Positions 13,706-43,811 of a DNA stretch of 64,000 nucleotides are shown here, piece after piece. The number at the start of each line of letters is the position of its first letter. The first letter of the stretch is position 1. The stretch comes from Kutzneria viridogrisea (GTDB lineage Bacteria; Actinomycetota; Actinomycetes; Mycobacteriales; Pseudonocardiaceae). Below the pieces are notes generated by a model. The model did not search any database, had not been told where the DNA came from, and saw only the letters and a program-made list of their open reading frames with translations. The stretch is from the NCBI GenBank assembly GCA_014138725.1, contig JACJID010000001.1, positions 1,612,001 through 1,676,000 on the forward strand, in the 5' to 3' direction. A program made the position numbers and the translations under genes.

Positions 13706-13715
13706 AGTTTCCCCC

Positions 13716-15675: not shown

Positions 15676-15694
15676 CCTGGTGAGGAGCGTGAGG

Positions 15695-16075: not shown

Positions 16076-16106
16076 TCCTCCCGGATCGCCGGTGCCGCTG
16101 AGGACC

Positions 16107-17042: not shown

Positions 17043-17137
17043 CAGGCACACTCCTTCTGCCGCTCGTGGCGCCGGAAGGTAGCCCTCGGGCCGGTCCCTG
17101 TACAGACCAAGCGTCCGCAAGGGCAACAAATCCGGTG

Positions 17138-17273: not shown

Positions 17274-18068
17274 TCATGCGCCCAGGCCCGCTTCCCACGC
17301 GGTGAGCGCGGTGGTGTCCGTCGACACCAGGAACTCCGGTCGCGGATTGGGGACCGGCACGGGCACGTTGTCCACGCTGTTGTACGTGATCAACAGCAGC
17401 CGCCGGTCCTGCGGGGACATGTTCGTACCGGACCCGTGGATGAGCCGCGGATCGAACAACAGCAGGCTGCCCGCGGTGCCAGTGGCCGCGCGGATACCGA
17501 GGTCCGCCGCGACCGAGGCCAGTTGCCGCGGGCTCAGTTGGTAGTTGAGGTCGGCCTTGAGGTTCGCGGCCCAGTCATCCCCGGCGCTGCGCCGCTCGGT
17601 CCGCACCGTGCCCAGCAGGTGCGAACCTGGCAGGAACAGCAGCGGACCGTTGAAGTCCGTCGCGTCGTCGAGGAACAGCGCGATGTTCATCGCCCGCGGG
17701 GTGCGCATGCCGTCCTCGCGCTCCCAGAAGATGTAGTCCTGGTGCCAAGGCCACACGTCGCCACGCAGCGCCAGCTTGGCGTTGACCTTCGACTGGTACA
17801 CGTAGACCTTGCTCTCAAGGACCTGCTCCGCCGCGCCCAGCAACCTCGGCAGCCGGGTGAGCCGGTCGAACAGCGAGCTGACCTGGTGGCAGCCGTGCAC
17901 GCCGCGCACGGTCGTGCCGTCCGTCTCGAGCATGCGGCCGGGGTGGTCCAGCGCGAACAACGTCTCGACATCGTCCCGCACCAGCGCGAGATCCGCGGGC
18001 GGGATGACGTCGGGAACGACGACGAACCCCTCGGTGTGGTAGGTGGCGAACTGCGAATCGGTGAGCAT
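17274..18068 (-). CDS. Phytanoyl-CoA dioxygenase-family tailoring hydroxylase
   Basis: About 264 residues of a non-haem Fe(II)/2-oxoglutarate oxygenase. The facial triad reads HQD in WPWHQDYIFWERED (~residue 105) and the distal His in DPRLIHGSGTNMS (~residue 205), followed by the 2-oxoglutarate Arg region. MNIALFLDDATDFNGPLLFL is the usual strand between them. I start at the ATG at 18068, preceded by GGGGGAGA; an earlier ATG lacks a site. It is the last gene of the lipopeptide operon, 108 bp after the TE-containing NRPS. It probably hydroxylates an amino acid or the lipid, but the substrate is not shown. Confidence 0.9.
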   Translation of the reverse strand: MLTDSQFATYHTEGFVVVPDVIPPADLALVRDDVETLFALDHPGRMLETDGTTVRGVHGCHQVSSLFDRLTRLPRLLGAAEQVLESKVYVYQSKVNAKLALRGDVWPWHQDYIFWEREDGMRTPRAMNIALFLDDATDFNGPLLFLPGSHLLGTVRTERRSAGDDWAANLKADLNYQLSPRQLASVAADLGIRAATGTAGSLLLFDPRLIHGSGTNMSPQDRRLLLITYNSVDNVPVPVPNPRPEFLVSTDTTALTAWEAGLGA

Positions 18069-18176
18069 GTTCTCCCCCGACAATCTCTCGGTGATTACCC
18101 TGGTGATCTGCACCAGTGGTACTGACTGAACGCGGCGTCGCCCTGTGCGATCGGCTGCACCTCCGTTGGTGCGGGC

Positions 18177-21100
18177 TCAATGGCCCTGGTTTGCCACCTC
18201 CGCCAGGAATTCCGCGATCGCCCCGACTTGGGGCTCCTGGAAGAGCGAGAAGTGGTCGCCCGCGATCACCCGGGTGTCCACCAGACCCGGGCACAACTCC
18301 CGCCACCTCGCGCTGGCCTTCTCCCGCACAGCCGGGTCGGTGTCAGCACTCTGTAGCAGGGCAACGGGTCCGGACCACGGCGCTGGCACGTACCTGCTGG
18401 CCGCCAGCGAGTGCACGTGGTACAGCTCGAGGCGTCGTTGCAGGTGCTCCCTCGCCACCGCCGAGAGCTCGCTCGGGTCCTGGCCGGTGACGTCCTCGAT
18501 GGTCACCGGCTCGCCATCGAGCACCAGCTCAGGCGGGTACGTGTCCACCAGGACCACCATGGCGGGGCGCTCACCCGCGCTGGCCAACCGGCGGGCCAGT
18601 TCCAGCGCGACCAGGCCGCCCATCGACCAGCCGAGCAGCACGTGCGGCCCGGGGACCCCGGCGACCTCCGCGACGTACCGGTCAGCCAGGCCGGTCACGT
18701 CCTGACCGGCGTCCGGTTCGGTGGGAGCTTGCAGGGCGTACACCGGACGGCCCAGTTCCGGCCGCAGAGACAGGGAACGGAACCCCAGCACATCGCCCCC
18801 TGCCGGGTGAACGCAGACCAACGGCAGCCCGGCACCGTCCCTGCGCAACCGCACCAGGCTGCCCAGGGGGACCGACGAGTTGGCGGTGCGCACCAGCCGC
18901 GCCAGGCGTGTGGCGGAGGCCAGCCGATGGCCACCGTCATCGTCATCCACGTCGAACAGCACGGTCACGGGCAGGCGCAGGCCCATCGCCTCGTTGATCC
19001 TCGCGATGAGCTGCACTGCGAGCAACGAGTGCCCACCCAGGTCGAAGAAGTCCTCGTCCGCACCGACCTGGGTACCGAGCAGCTCCTCCATGCAGCGGAG
19101 GATGACCAGTTCCACCGCGTCGACGGGCTGGGCCAGATGGCGCGACCGGGCTGTCGTGGACTGCTCGGCCAGCGAGCGGACATCGACCTTCCCGTTCGTG
19201 GTCAACGGGATCTCGCTGATCCGGTGGTACTCCTCCGGGACCAGCTCCGCAGGGAGGCGCTCGCGGACGAACGCGTCGATCTCCGCCTCGGGCGGGACGT
19301 CGGCGAGGAGGTACGCGACCAGGCGTGTGCCGCGGTTCTCATCGTTGCTCGCCACCACAACCGCATCGCGGACCGCCTCGTGCTCCAGGAGGGCGGCGCG
19401 TACCTCCTCGGGTTCGACGCGGACACCCCTGATCTTGACCTGGTCGTCCACCCTGCCCACGTAGTGCAGGCCCCCGCCGGGCGTGTGGCAGGCCAGGTCA
19501 CCGGTCCGGTAGAGCCGGCCGCCGGGGGTGTCCGCGAACGGGTCCGGCACGAACCGTTGCGCCGTCAGGCCGGGGGCCGAGTGGTAGCCCCTGGCCAGCC
19601 CGGCACCACCGATGTAGATCTCGCCCGTGACACCGACGCCGACCGGTCGTAGCCGCTGGTCCAACACGTAGATCTGGGTGTTCGCGATCGGCCGCCCGAT
19701 CGTCACCGGTCCTGTCGTGGTGGTGACCTCGTGGACGCTGCACCCGACGGTGGCTTCGGTTGGCCCGTACTCGTTGAACAACCTGGTCGGCCCATCGCGC
19801 CACGGCCGGGCGACGTCCGCGGTCAGCGCCTCACCGCCCACGACGAGCGCCCGCACCCGACCGGCGAGTTGGTCAAAGCTGTGGTTCAGTACCTTCAAGT
19901 GCGACGGGGTCAACTTCAGCATCGCGGGTTCGTCCAGAGTGGGCAGGCCCTCGGCCAGCCGTAGCACGTCCCGCCACGCGGGGTTGATCCGCACCGAACC
20001 GCCAGCCACCAACGGTGTGAACAGGCTGGTGACGGTCAGGTCGAACGCGACCGAGGAGTGCAGCACGGCTGCCGTGTCGGCTGTTCCGTACGCGGCGGCA
20101 CTCCACCGCACGTAGTTGGCCACGGCGCTGTGCGGGATCATGACGCCCTTCGGGACACCCGTCGACCCGGAGGTGAAGATCACGTACGCCAGGTTGTCCG
20201 GTGTCACCCCGGAATCGGGGCGAGGGCAGGTCGGCCTGCTCTCGGTGATGTCCAGCACCTCGAAGCCGCCGACCCACCGGTCGGGGTCGTCGGTGACCAG
20301 GTGCGTCGAGCCGACCCGACCCAGCAACGTGGCCACCCGGTGTGCGGGAAGGTCGACGTCCAAGGGCACGTACCCGCCCCCAGCCTTCAGGACGCCGAGC
20401 AACGCCACCACGAGGTTCGCCGAATGCCGCACGCCGACCCCGACCAGGACCTCCGGGCCGACGCCTCGCGCCCGCAGCACCCCGGCGAGGGCGTTCGCCC
20501 GCTCGTCGAGTTCGCGGTACGACAACCGCTCATCACCGCTGTGCACCGCAACCGCGTTCGGGGTCGCGGCCGCCTGGTCCTCGAACAGCTCGTGGAGGCA
20601 GCGGGCAGGTTCGGTGTTGGCCGTCAGGTTGAAGCGGACCACGAGGTCGTGCCGGGTCGGCGCGTCCAGTGGGTCGAGGTCGGCCACCCGGACCGTCGGG
20701 TCACCGGTCACCTCGGCGAGAACGGTGGCGTACTGCCGAGCCAAGACGGTCACGTAGTCGTGTGCGAAGCGGTCCGGTACGTAGTGCCAGACGAATCGGA
20801 CCGTGTCCGCACCGACCACGCACTCCAGTTTGAGGTCGTACGACTCGGCCTCGACGTCCTCCCAGTCCAAGGTGAAGGTGACCGCTCCGGCGGCCAGCGG
20901 TTCGACCGCGGTCTTGTACTCGAAGGCCGCTTCCCATGCGACGGGTTCGGTGGCGTAGGGGTCGAGCAGGCACTCCGCCAACTCGTCCACTTCGGACAGT
21001 TCGGCCTCGGTGCTTGCCACGAGCTCGTTGAACCTGGTGTCCTCGCCGATCTCGCTGCGCACGCCGACCCACCGGGCCAGCGGCCCGGCACAGTCCCGCA

Positions 21101-21908
21101 ACTCGTCCAGGTCCCGGCCGGGAAAGCAGGTGCCGACGGTCAGGTCTGGCCGGCCGGAGACCCGGGACAGCAGGACCTGCCAGCACGCCAGCAAAACGCA
21201 TTCCACCGACGTGTTCAACCTGGCGGCGCAGCTGTGCAGCGCCTGGGGCATCTCGACGGTCACGTACCGGCCGTCGGCCAGTGCGCCCTCCTGATGCCCG
21301 CCCGCGAGTGGCAGACGCAGCAGGGTGTTCACGGACCGGCGGCGCAGCAGCGCGACGGCCTCCTCCTGCGGTTCCTGTCCCAGTTCATGTTGCCACTGCG
21401 CGAGTTGGCTGTGTCGAAGACCGACATGGTCCAACGGATCCTGCCGGTAGGCCGAGACCAGGTCGGCGACTATCGTGCGCAATGCCGCGCTGTCCGCGAC
21501 GAGGGCCGTGGTCGTGATCAGCAGTGCGTGGTCGTCGGGTCCACGCGTGATCAGCACCACCCTGAGCGGCGATCCCGTGTGGAGGTCGCCACGCGCGGTC
21601 CACTCCGCGCGCCGGATCCGCTCCAGATGCGACTGTCCATTAAGGACAATTCGACGCACCGCGACCAGAGGTGCCTCATCGGACACCACCTGGACCGCGG
21701 TCATTCCGTCCTGTACCGGATGGAACGAGGTGCGCAGCATCTCGCGCTCCCGAACCACTGTGGCGACGGCGGACGCCAGCCGGTCCACGTCCAGCTGGCC
21801 ACGGATCCGGACCAGTGCCTGCGCCCGGCACTCCCGGCCGCGTTGCCGTTGCTGCCACACGCGCAACTGCTGTGCAGACAGCCGATATCCCTCGACCTGA
21901 ACCGCCAT
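18177..21908 (-). CDS. Terminal NRPS: degenerate C-A(Asn)-T-TE
   Basis: 1243 residues. Residues 1-430 are a condensation-fold domain whose active-site HHxxxDG reads TTALVADS (~residue 138), so the catalytic His is absent. The A domain spans ~440-930 (AYVIFTSGSTGVPKGVM, NEYGPTEATVG). My reading of the eight pocket residues plus Lys gives D-L-T-K-V-G-E-V-G-K, an asparagine code. The T domain (DLGGHSLLAVQL) is near 960. A type I thioesterase with LLGWSMGGLVALE lies near 1092 and ends the chain by hydrolysis or cyclisation. The upstream NRPS ends with its own intact C domain and a TauD-type oxygenase, so the degenerate domain may act as an interface for beta-hydroxylation rather than condensation (inference). 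Confidence 0.93.
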   Translation of the reverse strand: MAVQVEGYRLSAQQLRVWQQRQRGRECRAQALVRIRGQLDVDRLASAVATVVREREMLRTSFHPVQDGMTAVQVVSDEAPLVAVRRIVLNGQSHLERIRRAEWTARGDLHTGSPLRVVLITRGPDDHALLITTTALVADSAALRTIVADLVSAYRQDPLDHVGLRHSQLAQWQHELGQEPQEEAVALLRRRSVNTLLRLPLAGGHQEGALADGRYVTVEMPQALHSCAARLNTSVECVLLACWQVLLSRVSGRPDLTVGTCFPGRDLDELRDCAGPLARWVGVRSEIGEDTRFNELVASTEAELSEVDELAECLLDPYATEPVAWEAAFEYKTAVEPLAAGAVTFTLDWEDVEAESYDLKLECVVGADTVRFVWHYVPDRFAHDYVTVLARQYATVLAEVTGDPTVRVADLDPLDAPTRHDLVVRFNLTANTEPARCLHELFEDQAAATPNAVAVHSGDERLSYRELDERANALAGVLRARGVGPEVLVGVGVRHSANLVVALLGVLKAGGGYVPLDVDLPAHRVATLLGRVGSTHLVTDDPDRWVGGFEVLDITESRPTCPRPDSGVTPDNLAYVIFTSGSTGVPKGVMIPHSAVANYVRWSAAAYGTADTAAVLHSSVAFDLTVTSLFTPLVAGGSVRINPAWRDVLRLAEGLPTLDEPAMLKLTPSHLKVLNHSFDQLAGRVRALVVGGEALTADVARPWRDGPTRLFNEYGPTEATVGCSVHEVTTTTGPVTIGRPIANTQIYVLDQRLRPVGVGVTGEIYIGGAGLARGYHSAPGLTAQRFVPDPFADTPGGRLYRTGDLACHTPGGGLHYVGRVDDQVKIRGVRVEPEEVRAALLEHEAVRDAVVVASNDENRGTRLVAYLLADVPPEAEIDAFVRERLPAELVPEEYHRISEIPLTTNGKVDVRSLAEQSTTARSRHLAQPVDAVELVILRCMEELLGTQVGADEDFFDLGGHSLLAVQLIARINEAMGLRLPVTVLFDVDDDDGGHRLASATRLARLVRTANSSVPLGSLVRLRRDGAGLPLVCVHPAGGDVLGFRSLSLRPELGRPVYALQAPTEPDAGQDVTGLADRYVAEVAGVPGPHVLLGWSMGGLVALELARRLASAGERPAMVVLVDTYPPELVLDGEPVTIEDVTGQDPSELSAVAREHLQRRLELYHVHSLAASRYVPAPWSGPVALLQSADTDPAVREKASARWRELCPGLVDTRVIAGDHFSLFQEPQVGAIAEFLAEVANQGH
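21631..21652. repeat. Dyad motif GACTGTCC-N5-GGACAATTC, copy 1
   Basis: TGTCC-ATTAA-GGACA forms a perfect 5-bp-arm dyad inside the terminal NRPS gene. On the coding strand it is read with codons rare in this GC-rich gene (ATT, CTT, AAT, GGA). A second 22-bp copy, differing only in the spacer, is at 40460-40481. Confidence 0.5.
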
Positions 21909-21944
21909 GACCTCGTCCGTTCTCGAGCAGCTGATCCCAGTGGA

Positions 21945-24900
21945 TCAGCCGAAACTCATCATGTCGCCCATGGCCACGAGCAGCTTCCGCTCGCCACCGA
22001 ACGGGTTGCGGGCGTGGGCGACCGAGATGTTGTCCAGCATCAGCACATCACCCACCTGCCACGGGAAGCTGACCTCCAACTCCGCGTACACCCGGCAGAT
22101 CTCGGCCATGGCGTCGTCCGGGATGGGAGTGCCGTCGCCGAACCGGCAGTCCCGGGGGAGTTCGTCACGATCGAAGGTCGCCAGGATCGACTTCCGCGTC
22201 CGCTCGTCGAGGCACGAGAGGTGCCAGTGCTGCGCCTGGTTGAACCACGACCACTCGCCGGACACCGGATGGCGGAGTACCGAAGGACGTACCGCCGAGG
22301 TGTACAGCCGGTCGTCCCGCCACTCGTACCGCAGGCCCTGCGCGACGCACCGCGCCTGGACCTCGGCACGGCTGTCGGTCCGGAACGCCGTGCGCCAGTC
22401 GAGGCCCAGGCCGGTGCCGTACCCGCGCAGGTACATCACGTTCTTCGCGGCGAACTCCGCGCGCAGGTCCGGATGGAGGGTCCGGTACATGACCCGGCTG
22501 TCAACGATCGGCGTCTCCCCACCCCATGTCGCCGGGCACTTGACACAGAACCAGATCCGTCCTGGGCCGCTGTCGTTGAAGGAGTCCCGGTTGTGCCACA
22601 GCAGCTTCTCCTCCGGTGGGAAGAGCGTGGGCGGGTAGGCTCGGCCGTTCAGCGAGGACTGCGAGTGCTCGCCGTTGTCGACGAACAGATCCGTCACGAA
22701 GACGGAGGCGAACCGTTCCAGTTCCTCGGATTCGGTGATTTCGAAGCCGCGGAACAACAGCGCCCCGCTGGTGAGGAGCGCATCATCCAGCATGGCTCGG
22801 TTATTCCGCGCCCACGCGACCAGGTCGACCTGTTCCTGATTCGGTGTGGCCACCACCGGCAGGGTGGTCCCCGGTGCGAGAGGAGCCAGGCCAACCAGGT
22901 CCGCGGAGTTCGCGATGACCTTCTTCGGCGCGGTTCGCTTCAGCTCGCGCAGGCGGCCCCGCACGCTGTTCCTGTCCATTCCGTGCGTCTTGCCCCGCTC
23001 CGGTCGGGGGCGGGACAGCTCGGCCCGGTGGTCTGGCTGCTCGGCGAGGGCGGTCACGAGCCGCACGTAGTCCGCCGCCAGCAGGGTGACCGCATCCCGG
23101 TCGAACACCTGAACGTCGTACTCCCAGGCGCCGACGATCGTCGTACCTTCCTCGGCCATCAGCAGGGTCAGGTCGAACCGGGTGGTGTCCAGGTCGAACT
23201 CCAGCGGATCGAGGCGGACACCAGGCAGCGTCCGGTTGCCGCGCCGGGTGTTGTCCAGCATCAGGTTGGTCTGGAACAGCGGGCTGTGGCCGCGGTCGCG
23301 TGGCGGGTTCACCACCTTCACGACCTCCTCGAACGGCAGGTCCTGGTGCGCGTACGCGGCCAAGGTCGTGGCACGTGCCCGGCACACCAGCTCCCGCCAG
23401 GTCGGTTCACCGTCCACAGTGGTGCGCAGCACGACCTGGTTGACGAAGAAGCCGATCAGGTTCTCCACCGCCGGGTCCGACCGGTTGGCGAGGTTCGCGC
23501 CAACGGCGAGGTCGGTCGAGCCGGTCCGCTCGTGCAGCAGCGCGTACAGCGCGGAGAGCAGGACCATGAACAGGGTCGCGTCCTCCTGCCGGGCCAGGGC
23601 GTGGATCTTGTCCGCGGTCGTGCTCGGGATGGTGAACTCCACCCGGTGGCCGACGAACTGCGCCGGGGCCTCGCGGGGACGGGTCATCGGCAGCGCGGGG
23701 ATCTCCAGAATGCCCGCGAGCTGGTCGCGCCAGTAGTCCCGCGCCTTCGCCAGGTGGCCCTCGTCGAGCAGACAACGTTGCCACACGGCGTAGTCCGCGT
23801 ACTGGACCGGGAGATCGGGCAGCACCGGCGGACGGTTCTCCTGCCGCGCCGCGTACAGCTCGCTGAACTCGTCCAGCAGCACGCCGGTGGACCACCCGTC
23901 GAACGAGATGTGGTGCACGCTCACCAGCAGCAAGTGCTCGGTGGCGGACAGCCGGACCAGGTGGGTCCGCATCACGGGGCCGTTGGCCAGGTCGAACGCC
24001 CGGACGGACTCGGCAAGCGCCAATCGCATCGCCTCGGCCTCGGGATCGTCGACGGTGCTGACGTCCACGGTGACCAGGTCGACCGGCTGGTACTGCTGTA
24101 CGGACTGGTAGGGCCGGCCGTCCTCGGTGACGAGCACCGTCCTGAGCACTTCGTGCCGGCGGACGATCTCGTTGAGCGCGTGGTGCAAGGCTGGCACGTC
24201 CAGGTCCCCGGTCAGCCGGACGTACAGGGGGACGTTGTACCGAGGATTGTCGGGCGCGAGCTGGTGCAGGAACCAGAGGCGTTCCTGCGCGCGGGAAGTG
24301 GGCATCAAGGTAGTGCGGGGCACAGGTGCCAGCGCGGGCGTGGTGGAACCCGAGGCCTGAGCGCACAGTTCCTCGACCGCTGCCGCCATGTCGGCCAGGA
24401 CCGGTTTCTCGAAGGGGGTGCGTATCGGGATGTCGACCCCGAGCGCGTCGCGCAGCCGGTACAGCAGCTGGAACGTGAGCAGCGAATGGCCGCCCAGTTC
24501 GAAGAAGTGGTCGTCCGACCCGATGCCGTCCTTGACGAGCAGTTCCTCCCAGATGTCGGCGATCGTCCGCTCGGTCGGTGTCAGCGGCCGTGCGTCCCGG
24601 CCGTGCGCGTGTGATCGGTCGTCGAGCGCCATCAACTCCCGCAGCACCAGGTGGTCCACCTTGCCGCTGGGCGTCAAGGGGAACTCGCGCAGCAGCACGT
24701 AACGGGCGGGCACCATGTGTGCCGGCAGGTGTGCTTTGGCGTGCGCCGCCACCGCGGTGAGCCTTCGTGCGGCGGTCGTTCGCCACATCGGGTCGTTCGC
24801 GTACTCGCCAGAACCGGCAGCCTTGGGCGCGGCGGGGTTGGCAACCGCGGGCGCAGATGTTGGCTGGAGGAGCACGTCGTACGAGCCGTCGGGGGCGCCA

Positions 24901-28778: not shown

Positions 28779-28812
28779 CAGGACACCCCCTCGGTTTCCC
28801 CTCAACCGTGCG

Positions 28813-31047: not shown

Positions 31048-31074
31048 GTTGTCCTCCATTGTCCGAATGGATAG

Positions 31075-34000: not shown

Positions 34001-37000
34001 AAGGGATACTCGCAGGCCCTTTCCACCGCCTGCTCGACCTGATCGCGGTCGACCCGTTGGACCGTCACGTCGACCGTGGCCTCCGCGCTGTCCAGGACCT
34101 GTTGGGTCGGCTGGCCGTCCAACTCGACGAACCGCGTGCGCAGGGTCTCGTGCCGGGCGACCACGTCCTGGACCGCCGCCGTCAACGCGGCGAGGTCGAG
34201 CTCTCCGGTGAGGCGCACCGGCAGGGCCATGTTGTAGGTCGGGTTCGGGCCTTCCAGCCGATTGAGGAACCACAGCCGCGACTGCGCATAGGACAGCGGG
34301 ATCTCGTTGGGACGTACGCGTGGGCACAGCTCCGGACGGGTTTCGCTGGTCGTGCGCGGGCCGTCGAGCAGTGCGGCGAGGCCGGCGATCGTGGGCGCGT
34401 CGAACAGCCAGCGGATCGGGACCTCGCTGCCGAGTTCCGCCCGGATCTTGCTGATCACCCGGGTGACTGCCAGGGAGTGGCCGCCGATGAGGAAGAAGTC
34501 GTCGGACACTCCGACTCGGTCTACGCCCAGCACGTCCGCCCAGATCGCTGCCAGTACGGTTTCGGTGTCGGTGCGTGGGGCGACGTATTCAGTCTGGTTG
34601 ACTCGGGCAGCTTCGAGAGGGTCGGGCAGTGCCTTGGTGTCGAGTTTTCCGTTCTGTGTCAGTGGCAACGACTCCAGTGGCACGAACAGTGACGGCACCA
34701 TGTAGTCCGGAAGGCACTCGCGTACCGCGTCGCGCAGTGCTGCGGCGTCCACCTGGCTGCCAGCTGCGGCGACGATGTAGGCGACGAGGACGTCTCCGCG
34801 TCCCACCACTGCGGCCTGGGAGACTCCCGGCTGGCGATCCAGTGCCAGTTCCACCTCGCCCGGCTCCACCCGGTTTCCCCGGACCTTCACCTGACGATCA
34901 GCCCGCCCGAAGAACTCCAACTGCCCGTCGGGCAACCACCGCGCGAGGTCACCAGTCCGGTACATCCGCGTGCCAGGCTCACCGAACGGGTCGGGCAGGA
35001 ACACCTCCGCGGTACGGGCGGGCATGTTCAGGTAGCCATGCGCCAAACCAACTCCGGCCGCGTACAGGTTGCCCACGACGCCAGGCGGTACCGCCTGCAT
35101 CTCCTCGTCCAGCACGTAGCTGCGGGTGTTGCTGATCGGCCTTCCGATGGGCGCGTTCACCGGCCAGTCCGCGACCTCGGCCGCGAGCTTCGCGGTCGTG
35201 ACCACGTGTGTCTCGCTGGGACCGTAGTGGTTGAACAGCCGACGGTCCTCGACCGCATCGAAGAACCGCCGCACCCGGTCACTCGGGGTCAGTGCCTCGC
35301 CGGCCTGCGTCACCACCTTCAACTCGGGCAGCACCACGCCGAGCTCCTCGGCGGCCTCACACACTGCCTCCAGCACCAGGTTCGGCACGTGCAGCTCGCC
35401 AACGCCGAACAGCTCCAACCACTCCGCCAGCTTCCTGGCGTCCCGCCGTACTTCCTCGGTCGGCACCGCGAGCACCTTGTCGTACAGCAGGGCCGAGAAG
35501 ATCTCATGCGCGGACGCGTCAAACCCCAACGACGCGAACTGGGCCACAACCGCACCAGGTTCGACGGCCATGTCCTTGTGGCTCCAGTCGAACAGGTTCA
35601 CCAAGCTTTCGTGGCTCATCACGACGCCCTTGGGCTTGCCCGTGGAGCCCGAGGTGTACAGCACGTACGCGGGGTTCGCCGGGGTCACCGTCCGGGCGAG
35701 GTTTTCGGTGGGGTATTCCGCCTGGGGCTGTTCATCCAGTGCCACCACCGGGCAGTCCAGTCCCAACCGAGACGCGATCTCGCTGGTGGTCACGACGAGT
35801 CGTGGCCGTGCGTCGGACACGATCGTTTTGACACGCTTGTCGGGGTACGCGATGTCGATCGGCAGATACGCGGCGCCAGCCTTCAACACCGCCAGCACCG
35901 CGACCACCATGTCGATCGACCTCGGCACCATCAGGCCGACTACGCTCTCCTGTGCCACCCCCTGGTTGGCCAGCAGCCGCGCCAGCTGGTTGGCGCGGGC
36001 GTTCAACTCGGCACAGGTGACCTTCTCCTGCTCGAACAGCACCGCGAGCGCATCCGGTGCCCGCTCCACGCGTTCCTCGAACAACGCGTGCAGGGTCGTG
36101 TCCGAAATCGTGGCAGTACCACCGTCTTCCCACTGGTGCAAGGTCGCGCTTGCCGCAGCGGTGATCATCGGGATCCGCTTGGCGTGCTGGTCCGCCTCGG
36201 TCAGGAACGCGTCCAGCAGCAGTGCGAACGTGGCGACGTGACCGCGAATCGTCGGCTCGTCGAAAAGGTCCGCGTTGTACTTGAATACCGCCCTGATCTC
36301 ATCGCCCATCGAGACCATGTCGACCTCGATGTCCGCCTTGGCGTAGTGGGATTCGGCGGTCAGCAGGGTCGCGGACAGACCGTCCAGTTGCGGCGCCGTG
36401 ACGGCGTTGTCCAGGTTGAACGTCGTATTGATCAGCTGGGCGCGGGTTCCGTCGACGCCCGCGAGCATCTCGGTGCGCAGTTCGGCGAACGGGTAGGCCG
36501 CGTGGTCGTGCGCGGCGAACAGGTCCTGTCGCAACGAGGTGAGGAAGTCCGCCACAGTCATGGCGCCGGTCAGTCGGCTGCGGACGGGGACCATGTTGCC
36601 GCAGTTGCCGACCAGCCGGTCCGCACCCTTGTCCTCGCGCAGGGCGATGGGAACGCCGATGACGACGTCCTGGTCACCGGTGACGCGGTGCAGCAGAAGC
36701 GCGTATGCGCCGAGCAGGATGGTGAACGGGGTATTTCCCAGTTCCCGCGCGGTCTTCGCGAGCCGAGTGGCCACGTCCTGCCCCAGCACCATCGGTACCT
36801 GTCCACCGTGGTAGGTGACTCGCGGTGGACGTGGTCGGTCCGTCGGCAGCCGCAGGGTCGGTACGCCGTTGGGGAAGTGGTTCAGCCAGTACGCCCGGTC
36901 GCGCGCCGCGTCCTCACCGCTGAGATAGCGCAGTCGCCGGTCAACGAACTCCTGGTAGCGCGGGGCGGGCGCAAGCCGCTCGGCACCCAGGGACACGCGG

Positions 37001-40000
37001 GTGTTGTAAAGGTGCTCGAGCTCGTTGAAGAGCACGACGAACGACCAACCGTCGAGTACGGTGTGGTGCGCGGCCACGTGCAACTGGTGGCGGTCGTCGG
37101 CGATCTTGAGCACGGCCACGCGGACCAGGGGAGCGGCTGTCAGGTCGAACGTGGTCTCGGTCTGTGCCGTGAGCCACTGCACCCGGGCGGCCGGATCGGC
37201 GGAGAAGTCCAGGACCGGGACGTCCAACTGGAGCGAGTGCGCGACAAGCTGTTCGGAACCGTCTGCGGCAAATGTGGTTCGCAGGGTGTCGTGTCGACGA
37301 ACCAGGTCCTGCAACGACTCCCGCAGCGCGTCGACGCGCAACTCGCCGCGTAGTTCCAGCAAGGCCGTCTCGACGCAGACCCGAGCCTGCTCCGGGCCGA
37401 TCTGGTTGAGCAGCCAGAACTCGCGCTGCATGTCGGTGAGCGGGTACCCGCCGGGTTGGTCGGCCACCGCCTTCGAGCCGGGGAAGAACCCGTGTGCGCG
37501 CAGTTCGTTCACCGTGTCGGCGAAGATCGACACGATCCGGTCCACGTCCTCGTCGGTGTGCGCCGTGGACAGGAAGCAGTTGCGGCCCTCCCAGATGTAG
37601 AGGCCGCGTTCCACCAGCATCAGGTGGAACAGTTCCACGGTCTCCGACAGCATCGGCTCCTCCGGGAACCGCAGCCGGAACAGCGAGCCGAAGTTCACCA
37701 CCGCGATCGGCACACCGGCCTCGCGGCACATCGCGTTCAGCCGGTCGGCCATGCCCTCGACCCGCTGGTTGAGCTCGGCGTGCAGACCCGGGCCGCGGCG
37801 GCGCATCTCCCGCAGCACGGCCCGGCTCGCGGCTAGTGCGAGCGGGTGCTTGCAGAACGTGCCGGTGAAGAAGGTCCTGACCGACTGCGGGTACGGCGTG
37901 TTGCCGAACCCCCAGGCGCCGCCGTCGATCGCGTCGAGGTACTCGCTGTTGCCCGCGACCATGCCGATCGGCAGGCCGCCCCCGATGATCTTGCCGTACA
38001 CGGCCAGGTCCGCCGGCACGTCGAACAGGGCCTGCGCGCCACCGGGGTGCACCCGGAACCCGGTGATGACCTCGTCGAAGATCAGCGCCACCCCGGCCTG
38101 CGCGGTGATCTCTCGCAGCTGCCGTAGGAACTCCACCGGCTGAAGTTCGGGCTTCCTGCTCTGCACCGGTTCGACCAGCACAGCGGCGAGTTCGTGCACG
38201 TGGTCGCGGAGCACGGCGAGGGCTTCGTCCTCCCCGTACGGCAGGATGAGCGTGTCCTGCCCCACGGCGGCCGGCACGCCAGGCGCCAGTGGAGCCGCGT
38301 CGCCGGTGCGGCCGTTGGGGTCCTGCCTGGCCAGGATCGGGTCAGCGGAACCGTGGTAGGAACCGGCGAACAGCGCCACCTTCGTGCGTCCCGACACGGC
38401 CCGCGCCAGTCGCACGGCGACCATCACCGCCTCGGAACCGGTGTTACAGAACACCGCCCGTTGCTTGCCGGTCATCTCGCAGACCAGTTCGGCCACCTCG
38501 GCGGCGAGCAGCGGGTGCGGGCCGAGCTGCATGCCGTGGGCCAGCTGACCGGCGATGGCCTCGTTGATGAAGGATTCGTTGTGCCCGAACAGGTTGACAC
38601 CGAACCCCATGGTGAGGTCGAGGTACTCGTTGCCGTCCACGTCCCACATCCGCGCGCCCTGCGAACGGGTCACCGCGATGGGGTAGCGGGTCTCCCGCAG
38701 GTCGATGTGGGGTTGGGGCGCGTGTCGTACGTCAGCGTGGTACGCGCGTTCCTGGATCGCCTGTTGCTTGGAACCGGCTGTGCGTGCGCAGAACCGGCGG
38801 ACGAACTCCTCGGCGAACGCGTGCTGCTCGGCGTTCCAGGCCCCTGACCGCTTGGCCTCGGTCTGCTGGAAGGCGACGTAGGTTTCCCGCTGCTTGGTCT
38901 GCTGGGTCTGCGGCTCGGCCGGTCGGGGCGGGAGGGGCGCCTTGCGGCCTTGCAGGAGCTCGTATGCCTGGGCCATCACACGTTCGTGCACGCTGAGGAA
39001 CTGGCCGACCGCGTCGTCCGGAGCTGCTCCGTTGGCGGGAGCTGGCGCCGTGCGCGGTTGCGCCGCCACCGGCACAGGTGCCGGCGTGATCAGCTGGTCC
39101 AGTACGTGTTTCGGCGCGTTCTCGGTGATGTACGCGGCCAACCGGTCGACGGTGTTGAGTTCCTCGAACAGCCTGCTGACCGGCAGCCGTACCTGGAAGG
39201 TCTCCTGGACCGTTTGCAGGGTCTGGAACAGTGTCATCGAGTCGGCGCCCAGTTCCAGGAACGAGGCGTGCGGGTCGACCGGACCGTGGTGGTGCAACAA
39301 CCGGCCCACGGTTTCGGCCAGCACGGTGTGGACATCACGAGATGGCTGCGCGGTGAGCACGGGGACCTCAGCCCTTTCTGCTGGCCGTTCGTGGTGCGGG
39401 TCGCCGGGGAGCGGGAACCAGTGGCGCTGGCGGTCGAAGTGGTGGCCGGGCATCGGCTGTTTGCGGGCGCGCTGTCCGCGGTGGTGGCCAGCCCAGTCCA
39501 CCGGTCGACCACTGACGTACAGTTGGGCGAGGCTGTCGGACAGCACGGCCCAGTCGTCGATCGTGGGGCGCAGCGAGGCCAACCACAGCCGCCCGGTGAC
39601 CTCGCGTTGCCCGGCGCCGATCAGCGTCCGACCTGGACCGACCTCCAGATAGGTGTCGCACCCGAGACCGGCCAGCAGCCGGATCCCGTCGGCGTACCGG
39701 ACGGGCTGGGTCAGGTGCCGCTCCCAGTAGGAGGCATCCAGGACGTGCTCGGCGTCGAACAACCGGCCATCCAGGTCGCTGACCAGCGGAATCCGCGGCG
39801 ACGAGTGCGGTACGGCCCTCGCGGCCCGGCCGAAGGCGGTGCCCGCGGCGGCCATCGCCGGGGTGTGGAAGGGGTACGTGGAGTTGAGCGGGCGGGTGTC
39901 GATGCCTCGCTCGGCGAGGTCCTCGGCGAACGTGGCGACCAGCGTCGACGCTCCGGCGACCGCGACGTTGCGGGATCCGTTCACGGCGGCCACGGCGAGC

Positions 40001-42252
40001 CCTGGCCACTCGTCGAGCATCGCACGGACCGCTTGTTCCTCGGTGAACACCGCGAGCATCGCGCCCGGCGGCACCAGTTCCTGGACCAGGCGGCCGCGCT
40101 CGGCGGCCAGCCTCAGGCCTTGTTCCAGGTCGAACACCCCGGCTACGCAGGCGGCTGCCAGCTCACCGACGCTGTGCCCGAGCAGGTAGTCCGGTTCGAT
40201 GCCCCAGGACTGCCAGAGCCGCGCGAGGGCGTACTCGATCGCGAACAACGCCGGCTGCGTGTACCGCGTCTGGTCGAGGAGTCCACGGTCGGCGGGGTCC
40301 GGAAACAGCACTGTCGACAGCGACCGGCCCCAGTACTCGCCGAGCACCTCGTCGCACTGGTCCAGTTCCCGGCGAAACCACGGGTTCGTGGTGTAGAGCT
40401 GCCGTGCCATGTCGGAGAATTGGGCGCCTTGGCCGCTGAAGAGGAAGGCCAATTTGCCAGACTGTCCTAAACGGACAATTCCGTTGTGGACATCCGATGT
40501 GGACCGACGCAGCAGCTGATCGGCCAGCTGTGCACGGTCGCCGCCGACCACGGCCAGCCGGTGGGTGAAGTGCTGTCGGCCCGTGTTCGCGGTCACGCAC
40601 GCGTCCTCGACCGAGACGTCGGTGGCTCCGCGAAGCCTTTCGCCCCAGGCGGTCCTCGCCGCGTCGAGTGCGGATTCGGTGCGGGCGCTGAGGGCCAACA
40701 CGTGGACGGTCCTACCGTCGACCCCGTCGGGTGTCGCGGGTTGTTCGGTCGCCTCCTGGACGATCACGTGCGCGTTCGAACCACCGAACCCGAAACCGCT
40801 CACCCCAGCGGTCCGGGCACCGAGGCGCCGCGGCCAGTCGGACAGGCGGAGCGGGATCCTGACCGGCTTGGCGGCGACGTCCGGGTTGATCCGCGACAGG
40901 TGCAGGTGCGGTGGCACCTGCCGGTGCCGCAGCATCAGGATCACCTTGATCAGTCCCGCGATGCCGGCCGCTGACTCGGCGTGGCCGATATTGGTCTTGA
41001 CCGACCCGACCAGCACGGGCTCCTCCGCGTCACGGCCCTCGGCGAGCACGTCGGTGAGGGCTCGGATCTCGATCGGGTCGCCGAGTGCCGTGCCGGTGCC
41101 GTGGGCCTCGACGTAGTCCACCTCGGCCGGGGTGATCGCGGCCCGCTGCAGGGCGCTCCGGATGACCTCTCGCTGGGCCTGCCCGTTCGGCGCGGCAAGG
41201 CCGTTGCTCCGGCCGTCGTGGTTCACCGCCGAGCCGCGGATCACGGCCAGCACCTGGTCGCCGTCCCGGCGGGCCGCGCTGAGCGTTTTCAGGGCGAGCA
41301 GGCCGCAGCCCTCGGCCCGGACGTACCCGTCCGCGGCGGCGTCGAAGGTCTTGCACCTGCCGTCCGGTGCCATCATCCCGGCCTTGGTGAGGATCTCGGT
41401 CACCTCGGGCAGCACGATCAGGTTCACGCCACCGGCCAGCGCCAGGGTGGACTCGCCCGCGCGCAGGCTCTCGCACGCCATGTGGACCGCCACGAGAGAG
41501 GAGGAGCAGGCAGTGTCCACGGCCACGCTCGGCCCGCGGAAGTCGAAGAAGTACGACATCCGGTTCGCCGCGACACTGAGCGCCGACCCCGTGCCGCTGT
41601 ACTCGGTGAGCTGCTCCGGCGTGTTGGTCTGGACTCTGGTGTAGTCACCGACGCTGATCCCGACGAAGACACCGGTTTGGCTGCCAGCCAACGAGTCTGG
41701 TGGTGTGCCGGCGGACTCCAGCGTTCGCCACGCCACCTCCAGCAGCAGCCGCTGTTGCGGATCGACGTACGGTGTCTCCCGAGCGGAGAGGGCGAAGAAC
41801 TCCGCGTCGAAGGTCTCGATGTCCTCGAGCAGACCGTGGGCGCCAGGCAGCTGGGCGCGGCGTGGGCTGGCGGCGACAGCGTCGACGCCGTCAGCCAGCA
41901 GTCGCCAGAACTCCTCGGGCCCGTCGGCGCCGGGGAACCGGCAGCCGACACCGACGACCGCGATGGGTTCCTGGGCGCCAGCCGGTGGTTCGCTGGCTTC
42001 GACGGCCGGTGCCGGGACTGGGACGTCGGCGATGTGCCGGCTCAACTGGCGAATAGTCGGGTGTTCCCAGATCAGCGCTGGGGACAGCGTACGGGCGGTG
42101 ACCGTCTCCAATTCCCCGATCATCCCGACGGCATCCCGCGAGGACAGGCCATACGACGCGAGGGGCTCGTCGGGGTCGATGTCGGCCGCGGCCCGGCCGA
42201 CGTGTCTGGCTATCCGGTCGATCAGCCACGATTCCATCTGGTCCGGCGTCAT
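31075..42252 (-). CDS. Hybrid PKS-NRPS: ACP-KS-AT-ACP-aminotransferase-C-A-T-C-A-T
   Basis: About 3725 residues from an ATG with GGGGG five bases upstream (TTG at 42264 is less likely). Domains: ACP1 ~1-75; KS ~90-510 (DTACSSSLVAVHMA, VEAHGTGTALGDP, KTNIGHAESAAG); AT ~590-890 (GHSVGELAAA; YPFH, malonyl-like); ACP2 ~970-1040 (LELGADSMTLF); class III PLP aminotransferase ~1150-1590 (VYGKIIGGGLPIGM); C1 ~1600-2040; A1 ~2070-2560; T1 near 2594; C2 from ~2670; A2 ~3110-3600; T2 near 3657. The order fits MycA/ItuA: fatty acyl-ACP is extended by malonate, the beta-ketone is transaminated, and two amino acids are added. The A1 pocket reads D-A-H-L-T-A-H-V-V (unassigned); A2 reads S-V-F-E-I-A-Q-T-D, lacking the usual Asp. 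MbtH follows. Confidence 0.95.
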   Translation of the reverse strand: MTPDQMESWLIDRIARHVGRAAADIDPDEPLASYGLSSRDAVGMIGELETVTARTLSPALIWEHPTIRQLSRHIADVPVPAPAVEASEPPAGAQEPIAVVGVGCRFPGADGPEEFWRLLADGVDAVAASPRRAQLPGAHGLLEDIETFDAEFFALSARETPYVDPQQRLLLEVAWRTLESAGTPPDSLAGSQTGVFVGISVGDYTRVQTNTPEQLTEYSGTGSALSVAANRMSYFFDFRGPSVAVDTACSSSLVAVHMACESLRAGESTLALAGGVNLIVLPEVTEILTKAGMMAPDGRCKTFDAAADGYVRAEGCGLLALKTLSAARRDGDQVLAVIRGSAVNHDGRSNGLAAPNGQAQREVIRSALQRAAITPAEVDYVEAHGTGTALGDPIEIRALTDVLAEGRDAEEPVLVGSVKTNIGHAESAAGIAGLIKVILMLRHRQVPPHLHLSRINPDVAAKPVRIPLRLSDWPRRLGARTAGVSGFGFGGSNAHVIVQEATEQPATPDGVDGRTVHVLALSARTESALDAARTAWGERLRGATDVSVEDACVTANTGRQHFTHRLAVVGGDRAQLADQLLRRSTSDVHNGIVRLGQSGKLAFLFSGQGAQFSDMARQLYTTNPWFRRELDQCDEVLGEYWGRSLSTVLFPDPADRGLLDQTRYTQPALFAIEYALARLWQSWGIEPDYLLGHSVGELAAACVAGVFDLEQGLRLAAERGRLVQELVPPGAMLAVFTEEQAVRAMLDEWPGLAVAAVNGSRNVAVAGASTLVATFAEDLAERGIDTRPLNSTYPFHTPAMAAAGTAFGRAARAVPHSSPRIPLVSDLDGRLFDAEHVLDASYWERHLTQPVRYADGIRLLAGLGCDTYLEVGPGRTLIGAGQREVTGRLWLASLRPTIDDWAVLSDSLAQLYVSGRPVDWAGHHRGQRARKQPMPGHHFDRQRHWFPLPGDPHHERPAERAEVPVLTAQPSRDVHTVLAETVGRLLHHHGPVDPHASFLELGADSMTLFQTLQTVQETFQVRLPVSRLFEELNTVDRLAAYITENAPKHVLDQLITPAPVPVAAQPRTAPAPANGAAPDDAVGQFLSVHERVMAQAYELLQGRKAPLPPRPAEPQTQQTKQRETYVAFQQTEAKRSGAWNAEQHAFAEEFVRRFCARTAGSKQQAIQERAYHADVRHAPQPHIDLRETRYPIAVTRSQGARMWDVDGNEYLDLTMGFGVNLFGHNESFINEAIAGQLAHGMQLGPHPLLAAEVAELVCEMTGKQRAVFCNTGSEAVMVAVRLARAVSGRTKVALFAGSYHGSADPILARQDPNGRTGDAAPLAPGVPAAVGQDTLILPYGEDEALAVLRDHVHELAAVLVEPVQSRKPELQPVEFLRQLREITAQAGVALIFDEVITGFRVHPGGAQALFDVPADLAVYGKIIGGGLPIGMVAGNSEYLDAIDGGAWGFGNTPYPQSVRTFFTGTFCKHPLALAASRAVLREMRRRGPGLHAELNQRVEGMADRLNAMCREAGVPIAVVNFGSLFRLRFPEEPMLSETVELFHLMLVERGLYIWEGRNCFLSTAHTDEDVDRIVSIFADTVNELRAHGFFPGSKAVADQPGGYPLTDMQREFWLLNQIGPEQARVCVETALLELRGELRVDALRESLQDLVRRHDTLRTTFAADGSEQLVAHSLQLDVPVLDFSADPAARVQWLTAQTETTFDLTAAPLVRVAVLKIADDRHQLHVAAHHTVLDGWSFVVLFNELEHLYNTRVSLGAERLAPAPRYQEFVDRRLRYLSGEDAARDRAYWLNHFPNGVPTLRLPTDRPRPPRVTYHGGQVPMVLGQDVATRLAKTARELGNTPFTILLGAYALLLHRVTGDQDVVIGVPIALREDKGADRLVGNCGNMVPVRSRLTGAMTVADFLTSLRQDLFAAHDHAAYPFAELRTEMLAGVDGTRAQLINTTFNLDNAVTAPQLDGLSATLLTAESHYAKADIEVDMVSMGDEIRAVFKYNADLFDEPTIRGHVATFALLLDAFLTEADQHAKRIPMITAAASATLHQWEDGGTATISDTTLHALFEERVERAPDALAVLFEQEKVTCAELNARANQLARLLANQGVAQESVVGLMVPRSIDMVVAVLAVLKAGAAYLPIDIAYPDKRVKTIVSDARPRLVVTTSEIASRLGLDCPVVALDEQPQAEYPTENLARTVTPANPAYVLYTSGSTGKPKGVVMSHESLVNLFDWSHKDMAVEPGAVVAQFASLGFDASAHEIFSALLYDKVLAVPTEEVRRDARKLAEWLELFGVGELHVPNLVLEAVCEAAEELGVVLPELKVVTQAGEALTPSDRVRRFFDAVEDRRLFNHYGPSETHVVTTAKLAAEVADWPVNAPIGRPISNTRSYVLDEEMQAVPPGVVGNLYAAGVGLAHGYLNMPARTAEVFLPDPFGEPGTRMYRTGDLARWLPDGQLEFFGRADRQVKVRGNRVEPGEVELALDRQPGVSQAAVVGRGDVLVAYIVAAAGSQVDAAALRDAVRECLPDYMVPSLFVPLESLPLTQNGKLDTKALPDPLEAARVNQTEYVAPRTDTETVLAAIWADVLGVDRVGVSDDFFLIGGHSLAVTRVISKIRAELGSEVPIRWLFDAPTIAGLAALLDGPRTTSETRPELCPRVRPNEIPLSYAQSRLWFLNRLEGPNPTYNMALPVRLTGELDLAALTAAVQDVVARHETLRTRFVELDGQPTQQVLDSAEATVDVTVQRVDRDQVEQAVERACEYPFDLTTDLPLRICLFQVRQDEHVLVIVVHHIAGDAWSASPLAQDLGTAYAARRTGTAPTWQPLPVQYVDYTLWQRELLGSEEDPGSVVSRQLAFWRERLAGIPLEISLPVDRRRPAVASFRGDSVDFVVPAEVHAGLARIAAEWGASLFMVVRAGLAVLLSRLGGGTDVVVGSPVAGRLDEGVADLVGFFVNTLVLRVDVSGDPTFGELVGRVRDGDVGALEHQDVPFERLVEVLNPERSLARHPLFQVMLAFDNTSDFQTQLVDLDATEIPRGSTAAKVDLVFQMRERRGSDGTPAGIVSSLEYATDLFDRSTIERITTYFLRALTAVVAEPDIRCGAIDLLSPAEHKRLSESWTELARPVPVDTIPDLFEAQVERTPDGVAVVCGTDQVTFRDLNDRANQVAHHLRRYGLGNQSRVGVLMDRSTEMIAAVVGIWKAGASPVPLPSDMPVRRRDAIIAEARVTHVLAHRRLAEDLDNLDATTVLVNGNPKLDNEPTDNSGVVVRPHDMLTTVFTSGSSGTPKGVMFEHHNLVSGFAAYDETYRLRGRVTSILQMASEGFSVFTFDLVRAILSGARLVLCPQDLLLRPAELFDLMRRERVDCAEFVPAVIKGLVAHLRSTGERLDFMKVLIVASDTLYADELATIKELTGPDCVVVNQYGMTECTTDSTFHPARAQDSEYERRNLIGKPFPNTVVYVLDESMRPVPQGVPGELYVGGEGLSRGYLDRPDLTAERFLPDPITPLPGTRLYRTGDLGRQLADGSLELFGRADRQVKVRGNRVEPGEVELVLERQPGVSQAAVVGRGDVLVAYIVAAAGSQVDPAALRDAVRDSLPDYMVPSLFVPLESLPLTQNGKLDTRALPDTLEAARVNQTEYLAPRTDTETALAAIWAEVLGVDRVGVAEDFFLIGGHSLLATTVLAAVRDQFKVEIPLRRLFENPTVAALAREIADQLTQSDDVADELDDLVAMVEKSVHTEQ
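31279..31715. repeat. Near-identical ~437-bp internal repeat, copy B (A2 end/T2)
   Basis: This stretch of the giant PKS-NRPS gene encodes the C-terminal A subdomain and T domain of module 2. It matches 34480-34916 (module 1) base for base apart from scattered changes, at an offset of 3,201 bp. The neighbouring A cores, by contrast, are unrelated in their pockets. Confidence 0.85.
34480..34916. repeat. Near-identical ~437-bp internal repeat, copy A (A1 end/T1)
   Basis: Partner of 31279-31715 at an offset of 3,201 bp. It encodes GEVELALDRQPGVSQAAVVG through FFLIGGHSL. The repeat suggests module duplication followed by replacement of the A core, or continuing gene conversion. Confidence 0.85.
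40460..40481. repeat. Dyad motif GACTGTCC-N5-GGACAATTC, copy 2
   Basis: TGTCC-TAAAC-GGACA lies in the AT region of the giant gene. The coding strand reads it with a cluster of codons rare in this genome (ATT, CGT, TTA, GGA, TCT, AAA), including a TTA leucine. It matches the copy at 21631-21652 in all positions outside the 5-bp spacer. Confidence 0.5.
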
Positions 42253-42315
42253 CTGATCCCCCAACTAGGACGCTTCTTCCCCGGATTTCATTCAGTGCGA
42301 GTTGTCGACTGCTTT

Positions 42316-43620
42316 TCAACAATGATCAGCTGGCGTCAGTAGACCCGGTGCGTTTTCCGGGTGAGCCTGCCGGATTGGGGTGGCCAGTGCGGCGAGCACG
42401 ATCACCAGGTAAAGCGCGCCGACAACGAGCAGCGGCGTCTGGACCCCCACGTGTTGCACCAACGCGGCGAGCACGGCCGCACCAATGGGGCCGGCCGCAC
42501 CGTGAATGGTCCAGAACGCAGACGTCACCCGGCCAAGCAGATGACTCGGAGTCATGCTCTGCCGCAACGACATGTTGCAGACGCCGGCCAATGTCGTCCC
42601 CAAGTTGAACGCGGTCGCCATCAGGGCGACCACCACGACTTGTTCCGACATCCCGAGCAACGCGACCGCGACACCGCAGATGGCGTACGAAATCGTCCAG
42701 CACAGCCCGAACCCCCAGGACCTCCGCAGCGGCGCCGCGAGAACCGCGCCGACCACCGCGCCAGCGCTGACCAACGCCAACACCACACCGACCACCTGGT
42801 CGTCCTGGCCAAGGCCGGAGCGCAGGTAGTAGATGAAAACGTCGGTCAGTCCGAGGCTGAGAAACGTGATCACCGAGAGCAGCACGGTCAGCCAACGCAG
42901 CACGGGAACGCGCCACAGGAACACGACACCCATGAAGAACTCGGCGCGCCGGTCCCGCCACGTGGCGCCGCGCAGCGGCTTCTGGTCGGCCGGCATACGC
43001 AACGTGATCATGCTCAGTCCGGCGGCGGACACCGCGAAGCTGGCCGCGTCGAATCCCACCGCCATGGCCGGGCCGGACGCCGCGGCGACCAGCCCGGCCA
43101 CCACCGGTCCGAGGACGTTGGCCACGCCGAACGTCCCTTGCAGGCGCCCGTTCGCCGCCACGAGCTGGCTGCTGTGCACCAGTCCGGCCACCGCGGTCAC
43201 GTAGGTGACGTCGAAGATCGTGTTGCACACGGAGGTCAGGACCATGACCACGTACAGGAACCAGATCTGGGAGCCGGCCAGCCACAGCACCGGTACCAGG
43301 CCCATCAGCACGACTCGGACGAGGTCGCAGGTGATCATCAGCCGACGGCGGTCCACGTTGTCGGCGAGCAAGCCGGCGAACAACCCGGTCGACAGTGCGC
43401 CCACGCTGGCCGCCGCGGTGAGCAGGCCCATCTGCGCGACCGATCCGGTGGTCTCCAGGACGAGCAGCGGCAGCGCCACGAACGAGAACGAACTGCCCAG
43501 GTTCGACAGCGCCTGCGCCAGCCAGAACACGGTGAAGTCCCGGTTGGCGCGCAGCGGCAGGACAGCCAGCGTGGTGTCGCCGCGGCCAAGGGGGCGCCCG
43601 CCGCCCTCGCTGCGCCTCAC
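42316..43620 (-). CDS. MFS exporter of the EntS type, cluster transporter
   Basis: About 434 residues with 12 hydrophobic segments: FTVFWLAQALSNLGSSFSFV at the start, DNVDRRRLMITCDLVRVVLM as the A-like loop, and SLRQSMTPSHLLGRVTSAFW in the second half. These are the hallmarks of MFS_3/EntS exporters that secrete siderophores and peptides. I start at the GTG at 43620 because it overlaps the preceding small gene's stop (GTGA); the frame upstream of that is arginine-rich shadow. It ends 63 bp before the giant PKS-NRPS start. It probably exports the lipopeptide and gives self-protection. Confidence 0.9.
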   Translation of the reverse strand: MRRSEGGGRPLGRGDTTLAVLPLRANRDFTVFWLAQALSNLGSSFSFVALPLLVLETTGSVAQMGLLTAAASVGALSTGLFAGLLADNVDRRRLMITCDLVRVVLMGLVPVLWLAGSQIWFLYVVMVLTSVCNTIFDVTYVTAVAGLVHSSQLVAANGRLQGTFGVANVLGPVVAGLVAAASGPAMAVGFDAASFAVSAAGLSMITLRMPADQKPLRGATWRDRRAEFFMGVVFLWRVPVLRWLTVLLSVITFLSLGLTDVFIYYLRSGLGQDDQVVGVVLALVSAGAVVGAVLAAPLRRSWGFGLCWTISYAICGVAVALLGMSEQVVVVALMATAFNLGTTLAGVCNMSLRQSMTPSHLLGRVTSAFWTIHGAAGPIGAAVLAALVQHVGVQTPLLVVGALYLVIVLAALATPIRQAHPENAPGLLTPADHC

Positions 43621-43811
43621 GGGGATGGCTCCGCCATCGCCACCGCGCTCCGGCGTTGCCCGGCGAACGGCCCGCGCCCGTGTGCTGCCAGCACGGTGTC
43701 CACCACGTCCGGAATGCTCTCGGCGCCGCACATTTCCAGCTGGCCGTCCGCGTCACCCGTGTGAAACCCGCAGAAGGGCAATGTGTCATACGGGCTCAGT
43801 GCGCCGTCCAT
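43617..43811 (-). CDS. Small leader-position protein, first gene of the lipopeptide operon
   Basis: 64 residues from the ATG at 43811, preceded by GGGGG at good distance; an earlier ATG at 43829 is possible but lacks a site. The sequence begins MDGALSPYDTLPFCGFHTGD and has two cysteines (PFCGFH, LEMCGAES). I do not recognise it. It has no membrane helix. Its TGA overlaps the GTG of the MFS gene, so the two are translationally coupled. Codon use is normal for the region, which supports a real gene. Role unknown. Confidence 0.65.
   Translation of the reverse strand: MDGALSPYDTLPFCGFHTGDADGQLEMCGAESIPDVVDTVLAAHGRGPFAGQRRSAVAMAEPSP

Follow-up and report, generated by a model that had tools for sequence, protein, structure and literature searches.

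An orphan operon of Kutzneria viridogrisea that very probably builds an undescribed beta-amino fatty acyl tetrapeptide

We analysed a 64,000-nucleotide stretch (the window) of the Kutzneria viridogrisea genome, which comprises 10.25 Mb in 11 contigs, and found an eight-gene operon that very probably builds an undescribed lipotetrapeptide. The minus-strand genes span 43731 to 17274 and encode, in this order, an MFS exporter, a PKS/aminotransferase/NRPS megaenzyme, an MbtH-like protein, an 82-aa protein, a free fatty acyl-AMP ligase (FAAL), NRPS2, NRPS3 and a PhyH-type dioxygenase, with intergenic gaps of about 110 bases or less and two overlaps (Table 1). The product probably reads beta-amino-acyl, hydroxy-Pro-like residue, X2, N-methyl-Asn, beta-hydroxy-Asn. 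We infer the chemistry of each step, the building blocks used and the way the chain is released from the domains, and consider it likely that this orphan operon makes a beta-amino fatty acyl tetrapeptide by the proposed assembly route as a whole.

Table 1 Features of the operon and its divergent neighbour, with window coordinates
Feature	Coordinates	Strand	Basis
Large ATP-binding LuxR-type regulator, divergent from the operon	44357..47230	+	Pfam AAA_16, GerE
MFS exporter, first operon gene	42316..43731	-	Pfam MFS_1 1e-29
PKS/aminotransferase/NRPS megaenzyme, 3,729 aa, ACP-KS-AT-ACP-AMT-C1-A1-T1-C2-A2-T2	31075..42264	-	Pfam, motifs
Class III aminotransferase (AMT) domain	37465..38847	-	Pfam Aminotran_3 1e-50, tree
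A1, code DAHHTAHVVK, proline/pipecolate-type clade	34585..36081	-	
A2, code SVFEIAQTDK, ornithine-type pocket, D235 replaced by S	31405..32895	-	
MbtH-like protein	30823..31059	-	Pfam MbtH 1e-21
82-aa protein, small family without a name, seen beside MbtH/NRPS genes	30578..30826	-	
Free FAAL	28813..30588	-	Pfam AMP-binding 1.4e-69
NRPS2, 2,286 aa, C3-A3(DMTKVGEVAK)-NMT-T3-C4-TauD	21945..28805	-	Pfam
TauD dioxygenase domain, fused C-terminally to C4, probable T4-Asn beta-hydroxylase	21969..22844	-	Pfam TauD 7e-38
NRPS3, 1,243 aa, inactive C-like (interface-type)-A4(DLTKVGEVGK)-T4-TE	18177..21908	-	Pfam, motifs, C-domain tree
Condensation-like domain without HHxxxDG, reads TTALVADS	20643..21887	-	Motifs, C-domain tree
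PhyH-type 2OG dioxygenase, probable proline hydroxylase	17274..18113	-	Likely ATG start 18068

Which domains are present, how they are arranged, which motifs they carry and where they fall in trees are direct observations on the DNA. An earlier note, made from the letters alone, had described a free FAAL and an ACP-KS-AT-ACP-aminotransferase-NRPS megaenzyme, and both are present with clear Pfam scores and catalytic motifs; Pfam likewise counted the four adenylation (A) domains, one N-methyltransferase and two 2-oxoglutarate oxygenases that it listed. Every domain it named is there, but it missed the MbtH-like protein, the 82-aa protein and the inactive condensation-like (C-like) domain. Motif searches recovered DTACSSS, EAHGTG and GSVKTNIGH in the KS, GHSVGE in the AT, the serines of two ACPs, YGKI and FDEV in the aminotransferase, HHxxxD(G/A) in C1 to C4, TSGS, YRTGD and GK in all four A domains, four GGHS carriers, HNRD...NISVAH in TauD, HQD...IHGS in PhyH and GWSMGG in the thioesterase (TE); the N-methyltransferase carries LEIGCGTG and matches Pfam Methyltransf_12 at 5.9e-13. 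The only failure was at the HHxxxDG position in the first domain of NRPS3. The Pfam tables of the operon proteins hold no ketoreductase, dehydratase or monooxygenase domain and, with five condensation-type domains, place no condensation-family match in an epimerase position. With NCBIfam, each of the three NRPS proteins exceeded the cut-off of the generic model for amino acid adenylation domains and other matches fell below theirs; the FAAL matched fatty acyl-AMP ligase models at 7.5e-130 to 1.6e-100, every one under its cut-off. The megaenzyme likely starts at the ATG at 42252. Two frames were rejected as genes: 42326-43789, which has no Pfam match and is overlapped by the MFS frame, and 30582-31139, which has none either and whose place is taken by the MbtH and 82-aa frames. 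The divergent regulator is, from its position, a possible pathway regulator. Neighbouring MDR, GH16-like, thaumatin and glycosyl hydrolase genes (12899-17129) were left out of the pathway because their annotations suggest secreted or housekeeping proteins; around nine related regions, MDR matches were weak (26-38%, in G124, G021 and G051) and the GH16-like gene had no match.

That the product starts with a beta-amino acyl unit can be held with high confidence. The FAAL would adenylate a fatty acid and load the first ACP, KS-AT would extend the chain by one malonyl unit, and the beta-keto group, retained with no reductive domain present, would be converted to a beta-amine by the class III aminotransferase. 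A plain beta-amino acyl unit is expected because no ketoreductase, dehydratase or monooxygenase accompanies KS-AT, and by analogy with iturin and puwainaphycin logic (PMC4219810). The beta-amino fatty acyl front end of the earlier note is thus supported by the KS-AT-ACP-AMT domains and motifs, its chemistry being predicted. Matches to the ACP-AMT region at E <= 1e-60 occur in 32 of 297 genomes of the family, own included. In an aminotransferase tree of 97 rows, 14 of them from the family plus the window, the window forms a clade with G259a, G213 and three Dactylosporangium species (SH-aLRT 100), followed by Thermosporothrix (97) and then another Chloroflexi bacterium (98). The bacillomycin and cyanobacterial rows stand apart from this clade, and most family rows belong to other lines, only G259a and G213 grouping with the window.

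Residue 1 is very likely of the Pro type and, with somewhat better than even likelihood, hydroxylated: PhyH would hydroxylate a proline-type imino acid beforehand, and C1-A1-T1 would incorporate it. The features of PhyH point to an amino acid hydroxylase: it has 44% identity to a proline hydroxylase of solved structure, and it shows the fold and the active-site HxD...H of the PhyH-type free-proline hydroxylase H11, on which a literature search returned nothing among the matches listed. Its place in the tree, beside G060 and G235, is weakly settled and falls in neither the H11 nor the GriE clade. Counting against the Pro link, a Pro-type A domain is absent from 8 of 15 A-bearing PhyH segments; the control for this comparison was a non-random convenience set, 23 segments round AMT matches and the G124 tail. 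The 20 PhyH segments represent 19 places, two in the window's own genome, with the window itself excluded, and the count omits segment L201, where the DAH-type A domain of G250 lies, as well as the partial A domain of L237, and scores the G060 code DMEFSAQVVK as not Pro-type.

Two other roles for PhyH can be weighed here. On the same assembly line it might make 5-hydroxyleucine for 4-methylproline, as in the griselimycin route, with A1 loading 4-methylproline. This is unlikely: the enzyme lies outside the four-row GriE clade (support 100/99), the route needs a GriF-type zinc dehydrogenase, of which the operon has none, and the MDR gene at 14588-15556 is set apart from the operon by the GH16-like gene. 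The DAH..AHVVK pattern of A1, which departs from the plain proline code, also argues against it. Microginins carry a 2-hydroxy-3-amino acid residue, and PhyH might instead place a hydroxyl group on the chain's alpha carbon, next to the beta-amino position, and thereby create a microginin-like residue that could bind aminopeptidase zinc. Human phytanoyl-CoA 2-hydroxylase is among its fold matches (Foldseek, best 1000 chains only) and a FAAL occurs in 3 of the 20 PhyH segments (L230, L232 and L238). The window's aminotransferase has no adjacent oxygenase domain and PhyH resembles amino acid hydroxylases. Inhibition of aminopeptidases by microginins, which would suit this role, is described in PMC12250027. 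We regard the role as improbable.

Returning to the proposed route, in which PhyH acts on the imino acid of residue 1, C2-A2-T2 would incorporate a non-standard, diamino-type building block. The nearest relatives of A2 are ornithine-type domains, which share with it about 42% of residues across the core and 44-46% across the full domain (both non-own matches of one search and 3 of 10 matches listed of another were examined); such relatives in L170, L171, L173 and L174 carry the codes DVGEIGSIDK, DVGEMGSIDK and DVGEVGSIDK. In the alignment, D235 of A2 is changed to Ser and G239 to Phe, and E278 and D331 are retained. Because D235, which contacts the alpha-amine of the substrate, is replaced, X2 may be an unusual substrate that lacks an ordinary alpha-amino group.

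The same module bears a mark of recent internal recombination: megaenzyme residues 3514-3663 and 2447-2596 are identical at 136 of 150 positions, in modules that are otherwise about 30-35% identical, so that the C-terminal subdomain of A2 and the start of T2 nearly repeat those of A1 (window 31276-31725 against 34477-34926). This tract and the missing D235 could fit a decayed or silent chimera without a defined product, its A2 inactive through the altered pocket, as could the distribution in the genus, where an AMT match at 1e-60 is found in 2 of 7 genomes, own included; five of the six others lack one, and the sixth (G109) holds one of 43% identity from a different line. Such decay is very unlikely, since all eight frames are open across 26 kb with tight operon spacing and the catalytic motifs searched for are present except in the C-like domain, where 11 relatives also lack them.

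For an active assembly line, C3-A3-NMT-T3 would incorporate N-methyl-Asn, C4 would join Asn held on T4, and the TauD domain, docking on the inactive C-like domain, would hydroxylate the Asn beta carbon; TE would then free the chain and the MFS protein export the product. We hold N-methyl-Asn at residue 3 with considerable confidence and think beta-hydroxy-Asn at residue 4 quite likely; whether the product is linear rather than cyclic is an even call. The A codes are read throughout as standing for Asn, Asp, Pro, Pip or Orn. The order X1-X2-N-Me-(Asn-like)-Asn given in the earlier note agrees with the Pfam domain order and the Asn-type codes of A3 and A4, and can be refined to a Pro-like, probably hydroxylated X1, an unusual X2 and a last Asn that is probably beta-hydroxylated.

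Comparison of C domains bears on the fourth module. In a tree of 74 rows, the inactive C-like domain and 11 others form one clade (SH-aLRT 100) in which all 12 lack HHxxxDG. The next A domain is Asp/Asn-type in 10 of the 12 (exceptions G066 and G300), the preceding recognised domain is TauD in 8, and 10 of the 11 other members lie in TauD-holding segments, with no TauD seen in 40 kb of the remaining one (G301b). The TauD association is partly built in because many loci were picked for TauD, AMT or the 82-aa protein; the histidine loss and Asx codes are independent of that selection. With intact TauD metal ligands next to an Asx module and an extra C domain without the catalytic His, the module is of the TauD/interface type, and we infer that the C-like domain belongs to the interface domains, reportedly described by Reitz et al. 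in 2019. antiSMASH 8 has profiles for siderophore beta-hydroxylases and for interface domains (extra inactive C-like domains), PMC12971057 describes families of TauD enzymes whose substrate is Asp bound to a carrier, which they hydroxylate, and for potashchelin the C-fused TauD has been suggested to work on the Asp bound to the neighbouring carrier (PMC7100376).

Among known kinds, the operon comes nearest in layout to the microginin synthetase, and in logic also to the synthetases of iturin and puwainaphycin. The Planktothrix genes micACDE share with the window a free FAAL and a KS-AT-ACP-AMT fused to the first NRPS module, and microginin-type systems likewise have few modules, one N-methyltransferase and a terminal TE. 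The comparator, plasmid NZ_LR882964.1 (L244), presumably makes a microginin; its A codes are of Ser/Leu/Tyr type, whereas those of A3 and A4 are Asn-type, at odds with a Tyr-type C-terminal end. TauD, inactive C-like domain and PhyH, all present in the window, were not seen in 30 kb of L244, and its AMT is 50% identical to the window's but stands elsewhere in the tree. We do not class the operon with the microginins, because the residues differ.

Bacillomycin, an iturin, shares KS, carrier and AMT ahead of the first C domain (BamA, L245) and Asn-type A domains with the window, but its FAAL is fused and its AT lies in a separate gene (bamA/bamD), in contrast to the free FAAL and in-cis AT seen here. 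Iturins are heptapeptides with D-residues made by seven modules with epimerase domains, whereas the window has four A domains and nothing in epimerase position. The operon falls outside the iturins because FAAL fusion, AT position and module number differ. Of the description 'iturin-like', then, the KS-AMT arrangement before the first NRPS module stands, and the free FAAL, in-cis AT, microginin-type layout and separate AMT branch go against the rest. The puwainaphycin product contains N-methyl-Asn. Its synthetases have a separate FAAL and a PKS-AMT-NRPS hybrid like the window's (PMC4219810). The siderophore NRPSs of taiwachelin and potashchelin have a C-fused TauD and an inactive C-like domain as in the window, but their TauD/interface modules take Asp, whereas the A4 code is Asn-type; the flanking ORFs scanned include no siderophore-specific uptake gene. 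The suggestion that no known actinomycete product goes with this set agrees with literature searches judged on the titles and opening abstract lines of the papers listed, and a search for N-methylasparagine or hydroxyasparagine gave no actinomycete match among the matches listed.

Elsewhere, the two halves of the operon occur separately. G124 and G577 hold the tail with the window's domain order (MFS, MbtH, C-A-NMT-T-C-TauD and C-like-A-T-TE), with DLTKVGEVAK for A3, one letter from the window's code, and an identical A4 code. Identity to the window is 55% and 53% for MFS and 63% and 62% for TauD, respectively, and in G577 MFS, MbtH and the 82-aa protein lie upstream of the NRPS genes in the same relative order. 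The stretches covered at these loci, 60 kb and 45 kb, showed no FAAL, KS or AMT, and the first residues differ. G259 and G213 have the front end, MbtH and FAAL, but other A codes. No other genome among the 297 of the family was seen to hold front end and tail together; G124 came from outside the AMT-match set, and other TauDs reached at most 41% among the matches listed. The operon therefore looks chimeric, the simplest reading being that two cassettes inherited separately elsewhere were joined. Paired clusters in G250:C19 (L200, L201) and G210:C1 (L202, L203) combine TauD and PhyH with an Asp-type A domain that follows an inactive C-like domain, a Gly-type A domain and one with the code DAHFLAHVVK; their Asp-Gly order is reminiscent of calcium-dependent lipopeptides.

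If these readings hold, an actinomycete would join Bacillus and cyanobacteria as a source of beta-amino lipopeptides, its compound having an Asn-rich head group that is short and heavily hydroxylated, and the operon would be a sequence-level example of recombining lipid-loading and peptide-tail cassettes. More tentatively, it might represent a new lipopeptide class in which residue 2 is not an ordinary alpha-amino acid, a FAAL/PKS-aminotransferase cassette entered an older operon, and the 82-aa protein is an undescribed NRPS helper of Actinomycetota and Chloroflexota. The ornithine-type A pocket without the alpha-amine aspartate and the nameless NRPS-associated small protein are enzyme handles in themselves. 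New combinations of domains in orphan clusters are common in such genomes, so the operon is of interest without being a great surprise.

Neither Pfam nor NCBIfam gives the 82-aa protein a match above cut-off, and its predicted structure is of moderate confidence (pLDDT 77.5). A survey of 397 genomes of the order showed homologues in 14, the window's own genome among them, and they occur in 3 of 6 named-record genomes tried (Chloroflexota 3 of 3, Dactylosporangium 0 of 3). MbtH lies within 1.5 kb of the gene in 8 of 19 loci, own included, the two weakest matches (G547 and G582) being outside the neighbourhood reading. Longer segments show NRPS/PKS domains nearby save in G323, which has a FAAL only, and G529, with only a weak A-domain match beside TauD and MbtH. 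The protein may be a second NRPS helper beside MbtH, not an obligatory one, because the G124 tail has MbtH and no match to it. Relatives in L122, L123 and L125 carry an N-terminal extension that looks ankyrin-like by eye. In a Ktedonobacteria genome (G301; L163/L164), MbtH and the 82-aa protein belong to a large NRPS cluster in which three inactive C-like domains stand ahead of Asp/Asn-type A domains.

In the flanks of the window, transposase genes lie to the right at 53841-55100 and 61721-62551 (DDE_5/DDE_Tnp_1 and DDE_Tnp_4 families), the last 4 kb have a lower GC content of 63-65%, and a minus-strand gene at 907-4521 encodes an A-T-reductase (AMP-binding, carrier, Male sterility/NAD-binding) with the layout of a carboxylic acid reductase.
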